NCBI GenBank assembly: GCA_003573975.1
Contig: AP018533.1
Coordinates: 2,852,319-2,916,318 of the forward strand
Direction: 5' to 3'
Source: Clostridiales bacterium CCNA10
GTDB taxonomy: Bacteria; Bacillota; Clostridia; Oscillospirales; Oscillospiraceae
Length of the DNA stretch: 64,000 bases
The notes under the pieces were generated by a model, which searched no databases, was not told the DNA's origin, and saw only the letters and a program-made list of their open reading frames with translations. Shown here piece by piece: positions 51,878 to 53,793 of the stretch. Positions within the stretch are counted from its first letter, which is position 1. Every line of letters begins with the position of its first letter. The translations under genes were made by a program, and so were the position numbers.

Positions 51878-51952
51878 GCTGGTGTGGCTCAATGGCAGAG
51901 CACATCACTCGTAATGATGGGGTTGTGGGTTCGATTCCCACCACCAGCTCCA
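51878..51952 (+). tRNA. tRNA-Thr (anticodon CGU)
   Basis: A complete cloverleaf of 75 nt: acceptor GCTGGTG / CACCAGC, D arm GCTCAATGGCAGAGC, anticodon arm CATCA-CTCGTAA-TGATG giving CGU (reads ACG), T arm GTGGG-TTCGATT-CCCAC. The 3' CCA is encoded. It has its own promoter and terminator. Confidence 0.97.
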
Positions 51953-53046: not shown

Positions 53047-53101
53047 AACCGACCCAAGGCAGCAAAAAAGCGGGCCCAACTGCCCGCCATACCGCCTTTT
53101 T

Positions 53102-53630
53102 AAAAAAGAAATGACCCTTGACTGCCCGTTTTGTAATCCGCTGCAGTCAAGGGTCATTTCTGGTGCTCCTTGTTATCTAACATCATGTGGTTACCTCTCT
53201 TTCTACTGATTCACCGCACTCACACATTCCGTACACAAGAACCTGCTTCATCTGTCCAACGTCTTTTGATGCGCTCTCTGGCTGCATCCCTCATACATGA
53301 GGTCCTGTTCTGTTGCGTGATTCTGCCTGATTCCTGTGGCCTTCTGTGGTTTCGGTGTGCTCCAGCTTTCTTCCTCTCTGACCGGCATCTCGTTTGGAAC
53401 AGGTTTTACATAGTTTTCTCAAGGTCTCTTTCAAATGGAATCGCTCAGGTCTGCTTGGATCCATACGGTTCTTTTGCTTACCCAGGGTTTCAAGTGATCC
53501 AGATTTTGAGTTCCTGCTTCCGTTTCCTTTTCTGACTTCTACGTTGGATGCGATCCTTTCTGATTTACTCTGCCAGTCTGAGAGTCCTCTGGAGATCCAG
53601 GTTGTTTACCACATTGGTATCACCCTTTCT
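53102..53630 (-). ncRNA. Candidate large structured non-coding RNA (about 530 nt)
   Basis: The interval has no convincing ORF and is AT-richer than its flanks. A strong minus-strand promoter (53637-53665) starts it. A 19-bp perfect terminator hairpin (53107-53125 and 53143-53161) followed by six U ends it. The transcript is purine-rich, with short hairpins joined by A-rich linkers: CCTCA-TGTA-TGAGG type at 53289-53302, GATGC/GCATC at 53268-53288, GGAT-CGC-ATCC. A 7-bp AUGUGGU (53608-53614) can pair with ACCACAU (53185-53191), joining the two ends. The style recalls large ornate RNAs such as ROOL, OLE or GOLLD. I cannot assign a class from sequence alone. Confidence 0.7.
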
Positions 53631-53636
53631 GGCTAC

Positions 53637-53665
53637 AATATAGCATCAGTCTCCGATTTTGTCAA
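53637..53665 (-). promoter_or_regulatory. Promoter of the candidate large RNA
   Basis: Minus strand TTGACA (53660-53665) and TATATT (53637-53642) have a 17-bp spacer. Predicted start is about 53630. Confidence 0.88.
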
Positions 53666-53752
53666 TAGTTTTTTGGAGGAAATTATAATTTCTTTTCATC
53701 TTTTCCGAAAACTCTTTGCGGAATGCACAGTTTCTCCCTGCCCATCGACGCG

Positions 53753-53793
53753 AAAGGGCCCGGCGCCGCCGAAAGGCGGCGCCGGGCCCTTTT
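53753..53793 (-). terminator. Crotonase terminator
   Basis: An 18-bp GC-rich stem with a 4-nt loop lies just after the stop. The U tract on the minus strand is short (TTTCG); the other strand ends in TTTT. Confidence 0.8.

Follow-up and report, generated by a model that had tools for sequence, protein, structure and literature searches.

An interval in a 64,000-nucleotide stretch of DNA from Clostridiales bacterium CCNA10 (the window) raises the question of whether an RNA gene with no sizeable ORF is a large structured non-coding RNA or a transcript that ribosomes use. The initial annotation had described a gap without credible ORFs, carrying on the minus strand an independent RNA gene that resembles the large bacterial RNAs ROOL, OLE, and GOLLD. 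The gap is indeed there, but it holds two very short ORFs that are conserved in relatives. The features discussed below are listed in Table 1.

Table 1. Features of the RNA gene, with positions counted from the first letter of the window.
Feature	Position	Strand	Basis
Promoter: -35 TTGACA, 17-nt spacer, -10 TATATT, TG before the -10	53637..53665	-	Sequence scan; relatives
5' Shine-Dalgarno element AAAGGGTGATACC	53616..53628	-	Family motif GG(T/A)...CC-(A/G)-ATG
5' mini-ORF ATG-TGG-TAA (Met-Trp-stop)	53606..53614	-	Early stop conserved in the family
Variable body, purine-rich, locally structured	53204..53605	-	MFE z-scores
Stem P1, CAAC (53312-53315) with GTTG (53257-53260), enclosing hp1 and a second hairpin	53257..53315	-	Coordinates counted by hand
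Conserved hairpin hp1, CCTCATGTATGAGG	53289..53302	-	Coordinates counted by hand; relatives by eye
3' Shine-Dalgarno element GAAAGAGAGGTAACC	53189..53203	-	GAA and GAGG columns invariant in the 85 members of A2
3' mini-ORF ATGATGTTAGATAACAAGGAGCACCAGAAATGA (MMLDNKEHQK), start at the first or second ATG	53154..53186	-	Conserved ORF in relatives
Intrinsic terminator, 19-bp perfect stem and six T; 5' arm holds the last codons and stop of the 3' mini-ORF	53102..53162	-	Sequence; compensatory stem changes in relatives

The signals at the two ends, together with a family of such genes in relatives, support the locus being a real RNA gene that would be transcribed separately from a strong promoter to a terminator of its own, as had been proposed. 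The promoter agrees with the consensus at 11 of 12 positions, and the 3-kb scan that included it gave four promoter-like sites, as compared with 0.6 on average for shuffled sequence. Among relatives, a match to the promoter plus ATG was present in 37 of the 38 loci checked, and TTGACA was present in all 36 loci of the genus. The predicted transcript is about 530 nt long in the window and roughly 200-680 nt long in relatives. With 63% purine and a GC content of 46%, as compared with 60% and 63% in the coding flanks, the RNA interval also has the purine-rich and comparatively AT-rich composition first attributed to it. From a reading of their translations, the neighbors in the window are putatively an enoyl-CoA-hydratase-like gene upstream on the same strand and a permease-like gene downstream in convergent orientation. 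Just past the end of the RNA is another terminator-like hairpin (53069-53088, minus strand), and a very GC-rich hairpin, found by eye at about 53750-53790, follows the upstream gene; the RNA gene thus appears to be insulated at either side.

We searched the window against Rfam, the library of which includes the ROOL, OLE, GOLLD, raiA, and HEARO families named in the initial annotation. At the gathering score, a tRNA was the sole match in the whole window, and relaxing the threshold to an E value of 10 for the RNA interval gave seven matches, none of them meaningful, the best being microRNA models placed on the terminator hairpin. None of the five named families appeared at either level, and we reject these five and the rest of Rfam as identities for the interval. 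The interval likewise matched no model of RNase P RNA, tmRNA, 6S RNA, or SRP RNA, which bears out the earlier judgment that it is not RNase P RNA, tmRNA, or SRP RNA. Matches of the 6S and tmRNA models above the cut-off occur elsewhere in the same genome, and these two identities are rejected as well. Of two tmRNA-model matches in this genome, the stronger one (L033, C1:72145-72512, 143.5 bits) receives no call from ARAGORN, and a second one inside a tRNA gene cluster (L034, C1:1055837-1056241, 88.5 bits) is called by ARAGORN as a tmRNA with a 21-residue tag and may be an artefact of the adjacent tRNAs. A CsrB-like sponge for CsrA was also rejected, with no CsrA match in the genome of the window and matches in 3 of 14 control genomes. 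The tRNA gene that had been noted nearby is real (tRNA-Thr, 51878-51952), but a tRNA is present in none of 31 relative loci, which leads us to reject a linkage, and the proximity in the window looks like coincidence.

The RNA belongs to a family whose extent we assessed with nucleotide searches, with a covariance model of the 3' module (R1), and with a second model (R2). Of 60 related genomes searched at the nucleotide level, 38 have the RNA, comprising 36 of the 37 genomes of the genus (own genome included) and one each from two other families. In these relatives, the last ~105 nt are conserved and the first ~45 nt are conserved in several, while the middle is not. R1 matched at least 70 of 394 genomes drawn from the order, spread over 34 of 168 genera and 11 families, with some genomes having up to four copies or tandem copies; the genome of the window has one. 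R2 matched at least 33 of 120 genomes drawn from the family, at least 22 of 391 drawn from the class (that of the window plus 21 from other orders, which belong to seven families and include two marginal matches), and at least 2 of 398 drawn from the phylum (again that of the window, plus a marginal match of 35 bits). All these counts are lower bounds, with 10 candidates scored per genome in the order, class, and phylum draws and 33 in the family draw. A repeat search of 40 genomes without an earlier match, one of them of the genus, gave no match with R2 and a larger number of candidates; this set included no positive genome, although R2 does match the genome of the window.

A pattern scan of the database returned at least 117 stretches, and the model was carried by 63 of the 80 listed and by 29 of 37 further ones. 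Among the matches listed, the model-carrying records are labeled Oscillospiraceae, Ruminococcaceae, Ruminococcus, Clostridiales, Clostridia, Candidatus Faecousia, or uncultured bacterium, and many come from ruminant guts. The 17 listed stretches without the model come from other phyla (Treponema, Burkholderiales, Nocardioides, and others) and from some Clostridia, and were taken as chance matches to the pattern. Within the sample, the family thus appears confined to the class of the window, being near-universal in the genus and patchy elsewhere. An origin in phages or plasmids was rejected, given that the RNA of the window had no match among the phages or plasmids searched and that the model was carried by none of 21 pattern matches on viral contigs, with the proviso that a diverged phage copy could escape detection. 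Tandem copies about 460-610 nt apart, with peptides differing between copies, are found at L079 (G299), L080 (G372), L082 (G082), and L275 (G801), and G304 has four copies (L084-L086), two of them with strongly diverged peptides (MIEPNNEER and MTEPKHSGNNP). For the counts that follow, 206 entries of the module were reduced to 197 loci, and a further 21 loci, which were not de-duplicated against the 197, bring the set to 218.

The initial annotation had named a conserved ORF in related genomes as evidence against a non-coding reading, and the best-conserved parts of this family are two very short ORFs, each with a ribosome binding site. The 3' module is laid out as a Shine-Dalgarno element, GAAAGAGAGGT..., followed directly by ATG(ATG)TTAGATAACAAG...TGA. 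A core of [L/T/I]-[D/E]-x-K is encoded in 212 of the 218 loci, with four of the others having another sequence and two having no ORF; frequent products are MLDIKSEQK, MMLDNKTEQK, MMLDNKSEQK, and MMLDTKSEQK. The codons behind this core vary (TTA, CTA, CTG, TTG, and CTC for Leu, GAT and GAC for Asp, AAG and AAA for Lys), all three stop codons occur (TGA 94, TAA 71, and TAG 9 of 174 unique ORFs), and the number of codons from the L to the stop is identical in 163 of the 174. Single-base differences between unique cores are synonymous in 53 of 114 pairs, against 17.5% expected and against 8 of 63 and 24 of 88 in the other frames. The stop codon sits within the 5' arm of the long terminator stem, the two arms of which change together (AAATGA/TCATTT, AAGTGA/TCACTT, AACTGA/TCAGTT), with one locus, L044, as an exception that has a mismatch; the last codons of the ORF are constrained by the stem as well. 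These ORF counts are not independent events, because the patterns used favor the consensus and tilt the figures towards it, relatedness links the members, and the 21 added loci went in without de-duplication.

Amino acid conservation of this kind, along with the few paralogues of diverged peptide within one genome, could point to the 3' ORF being a leaderless signal peptide of about nine residues, with the remainder of the transcript as its 5' UTR. The peptide is polar and lacks a secretion signal, however, the family shares no receptor-like or exporter-like neighbor, and the arrays of mini-ORFs described below would be left unexplained; we consider this reading improbable.

At the 5' end, the conserved element is a ribosome binding site followed by an ORF of minimal length, and the canonical anti-Shine-Dalgarno sequence occurs three times in the genome of the window. 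The pattern with which we detected this element consists of the promoter and the context of the ATG, and the stop codon is not part of it. Counting only elements that scored at least 6 (159 of the 197 loci, 153 of them unique), the first in-frame stop falls within four codons after the ATG in 140 of 153 members, as compared with 12 and 2 of 153 in the other two frames. The ORF encodes two residues in 29 and three residues in 108 of the 153, and ORFs of 6-20 residues are present in 13 of the 159 well-scored loci. Among the 137 unique ORFs of two or three residues, the stops are TAA in 106, TGA in 17, and TAG in 14, and the last codon is AGG in 44 and AAG in 26. The products vary (Met-Tyr-Arg, Met-Tyr-Lys, Met-Asn-Arg, Met-Phe, Met-Ile, and others, with Met-Trp in the window). 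A fixed RNA motif fails to explain the element, since its length shifts between two and three codons and all three stops are used. With a Shine-Dalgarno site, a start codon, and an in-frame stop after one or two more codons, the element has the parts that define a minigene.

The mini-ORF can also be repeated. Arrays of two to four, commonly 45-60 nt apart, are found in about 13 members, a number obtained from 18 cases flagged as multiple by setting aside three neighboring gene copies and two doubtful cases. In one locus from another order, c_L270, the body is all but gone, leaving three mini-ORFs, the 3' ORF, and the terminator. In the scan for arrays, a single mini-ORF is the rule (153 of the 171 members that have any), 47 of the 218 loci have none that fits the pattern, and the pattern on the reverse strand is found in 2 of 218. 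By the detection pattern, the 5' element is absent from 32 of the 197 loci, including G415, where mini-ORFs can be seen by eye.

The main rival to the reading that we prefer starts from these minigenes and takes the RNA to be a translation decoy, which would capture ribosomes and initiator tRNA, or cause peptidyl-tRNA drop-off, through its strong Shine-Dalgarno minigenes, and so slow translation under some condition. The ORFs of two or three codons, the prevalence of TAA stops and of AGG and AAG as last codons, and the existence of arrays are all in its favor. Work cited in the available portion of PMC8708949 describes minigene toxicity as being raised by short length, a strong Shine-Dalgarno site, and UAA. 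The same portion of that paper also reports a minigene with those features that does not inhibit growth and acts in cis only, which counts against the decoy. Moreover, the single mini-ORF of most members would make a weak sink, and a decoy has no need of a 3' ORF with a conserved amino acid sequence. On balance, we find a decoy or drop-off role unlikely.

Between the two ORFs, the body of the RNA ranges from less than 100 to more than 500 nt across members, and it folds better on average than shuffled sequence. The whole transcript of the window folds better than its shuffles (z = -3.6), mainly through the terminator, and the body alone gives z = -0.96 (20 shuffles). Across the 145 members folded out of 155 eligible, the body z-scores have a mean of -2.0 and a median of -1.75 (20 shuffles each). 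The two start regions are more open than the body, with unpaired fractions of 0.53 and 0.61 versus 0.45 in the first 110 eligible transcripts. The initial annotation had proposed that the ends pair through AUGUGGU and ACCACAU; this pairing exists in the window, but only 6 of 37 loci can form the 7-bp helix, and the 5' letters of these six are identical, and the ends of the bodies pair less than those of shuffles (3.2 versus 5.7 expected pairs in 145 members). As such, we reject a helix that closes the RNA end to end.

Some local helices are conserved. By eye, the loop-closing bases of hp1 change together in relatives (CUCA..UGAG, CUCG..CGAG), and the stem around the two hairpins is kept through compensatory changes in the loci of the genus, with the alignment giving GACC/GGUC, AACC/GGUU, CAAC/GUUG, and GCCA/UGGC as P1 pairs. 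Because alignment A3 shifts P1 by one column between subgroups, P1 was tested by swapping strands between loci; the hairpin is present in 80 of 218 loci, or 68 after removal of near copies, and the resulting family-wide signal is weak (p = 0.009, median rank 0.37). A different motif, CACG[R]CGGUG...CG[Y], is found in 31 members (33 pattern matches with 2 discarded by eye), none of them a locus of the genus, with R=G and Y=C in 22 and R=A and Y=U in 9. This covariation is consistent with a pseudoknot, although the A-U form is limited to loci of other orders and may reflect one event. The form CACGRCGGUG...ACGY with AUAUAGA nearby, also absent from the genus loci, may define a subfamily.

These observations bear on two further alternatives. 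The first is the large structured non-coding RNA of the ROOL, OLE, or GOLLD sort proposed at the outset, for which the size, the promoter and terminator, some conserved helices, and the pseudoknot-like motif outside the genus can be cited. Like the ROOL, OLE, and GOLLD RNAs described in the available portion of PMC12286853, the family is a large bacterial RNA with its own transcription signals; it differs from them in its weakly conserved body and conserved ORFs. The likeness thus does not hold up: no Rfam model matches, the body varies widely in length and sequence, and what is conserved is a pair of ORFs rather than a large multi-helix architecture without one. We regard this as a decidedly improbable account. 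The second is a dual-function base-pairing sRNA, in which the variable body would regulate target mRNAs in trans and the mini-ORFs would be secondary. RNAIII is a dual-function sRNA, and dual-function sRNAs typically carry a terminator. By comparative evidence, the family likewise combines a stand-alone RNA of regulatory size with a small ORF that is conserved, the gene has local hairpins between purine-rich linkers as well as its own terminator, and SR1 and VcdRP offer precedents in the available portions of the sources that describe them. The body, however, shows less conservation than any other part and has nearly vanished in c_L270, and VcdP has 29 residues, as far as those portions describe it, in contrast to the peptide of 9-10 residues and the conserved second ORF of two or three codons found here. 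We judge this alternative rather unlikely.

The neighboring genes are in keeping with a stand-alone gene. Where the flanks were long enough (151 loci), the downstream gene shares the strand of the RNA in 79 cases and lies on the opposite one in 72, and the corresponding numbers for the upstream gene are 88 and 63; the gene calls behind these counts are crude and include some ORFs on the wrong strand. No neighbor is common to the whole family in these loci. One upstream gene, which we take to be DUF2461-like, recurs within the genus in up to about 19 loci (among L003-L048, half of them read on the wrong strand); its absence upstream of the RNA in the window suggests that this species has undergone a local rearrangement. 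The location of the 3' stop codon within the 5' arm of the terminator might recall a leader-peptide attenuator, with a ribosome on the 3' ORF opening the terminator for the downstream gene. In cat-86, a short leader ORF precedes an inverted repeat, and the family is alike in having a short ORF with a hairpin immediately after it. It differs from such leaders in having no consistent downstream gene: co-orientation is near balance, the downstream genes are not one family, and the next gene in the window is convergent. On these grounds we reject attenuation of a neighbor and consider it very improbable.

Taken together, it is highly probable from comparison of relatives that the family carries conserved translation units on an independent RNA. 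As that comparison shows, selection keeps a ribosome binding site with an ORF of two or three codons at the 5' end, sometimes as a tandem array, and a ribosome binding site with an ORF of 9-10 residues, its stop in a long terminator stem, at the 3' end. Our best explanation, which we hold with middling confidence, is that Clostridia possess a stand-alone gene for a small, mRNA-like RNA that engages ribosomes, with a division of labor among its parts; this explanation overlaps with the rivals above, as they do with one another. That the 5' mini-ORFs, the body, and the 3' ORF divide the labor among themselves is a more tentative proposal. The strong promoter would yield the transcript of about 530 nt. 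Ribosomes would load on the 5' mini-ORF or mini-ORFs and reach the stop almost immediately, and in doing so they would protect the 5' end against nucleases. What matters there would be initiation itself, since conservation extends to the early stop and not to the 5' peptide. The body would consist of local hairpins that keep both ribosome sites open and at a distance from each other. The 3' ORF would give a conserved product, either a peptide that acts in trans or a ribosome that stays parked at the 3' end; we infer action in trans from the lack of a consistent neighbor.

We favor shielding by ribosomes because it is the shortness of the 5' ORF rather than its peptide that is conserved, and because the available portion of PMC8708949 describes a two-codon minigene that acts in cis, is thought to protect its mRNA, and was not growth-inhibiting in that study. 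The minigenes of mRNA leaders covered in that portion (axe-txe mg2, ler, and the six-codon esp mini-ORF) are similar to the 5' element in being very short 5' ORFs with their own Shine-Dalgarno site and a thought protective role. They sit in the leaders of ordinary genes and act on those genes, whereas here the minigene is part of a stand-alone RNA, can be arrayed, and is followed by a sole downstream ORF of about ten codons. A more far-reaching and rather doubtful extension is that the family forms a new class of stand-alone bacterial RNA, in which neither a fold nor a protein but translation events would be the essential parts. At the 5' end, between one and four start-stop mini-ORFs would trap or gauge initiating ribosomes ahead of the terminator-locked nonapeptide ORF, and the lifetime or output of the RNA would report or regulate the state of translation in Clostridia.

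In the open-licence literature on structured and large non-coding RNAs, dual-function sRNAs, and Oscillibacter sRNAs, we found no description of the family or of its peptide strings, and the genera queried do not appear in the main texts of the systematic discovery papers, as far as the available portions of these go. The arrangement of a 5' minigene of two or three codons with a terminator-fused minigene of about nine residues is thus provisionally undescribed. Its conservation suggests that selection can hold ORFs of two or three codons across a bacterial class, and such ORFs are missed by annotation based on length. Intergenic RNAs that are called non-coding from the length of their ORFs may therefore be translated, and some caution in such calls is warranted. 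If the ORFs of this family are translated, it would offer a natural system for studying how minimal ORFs contribute to RNA stability and ribosome supply, and also the role of a conserved intracellular peptide of about nine residues.
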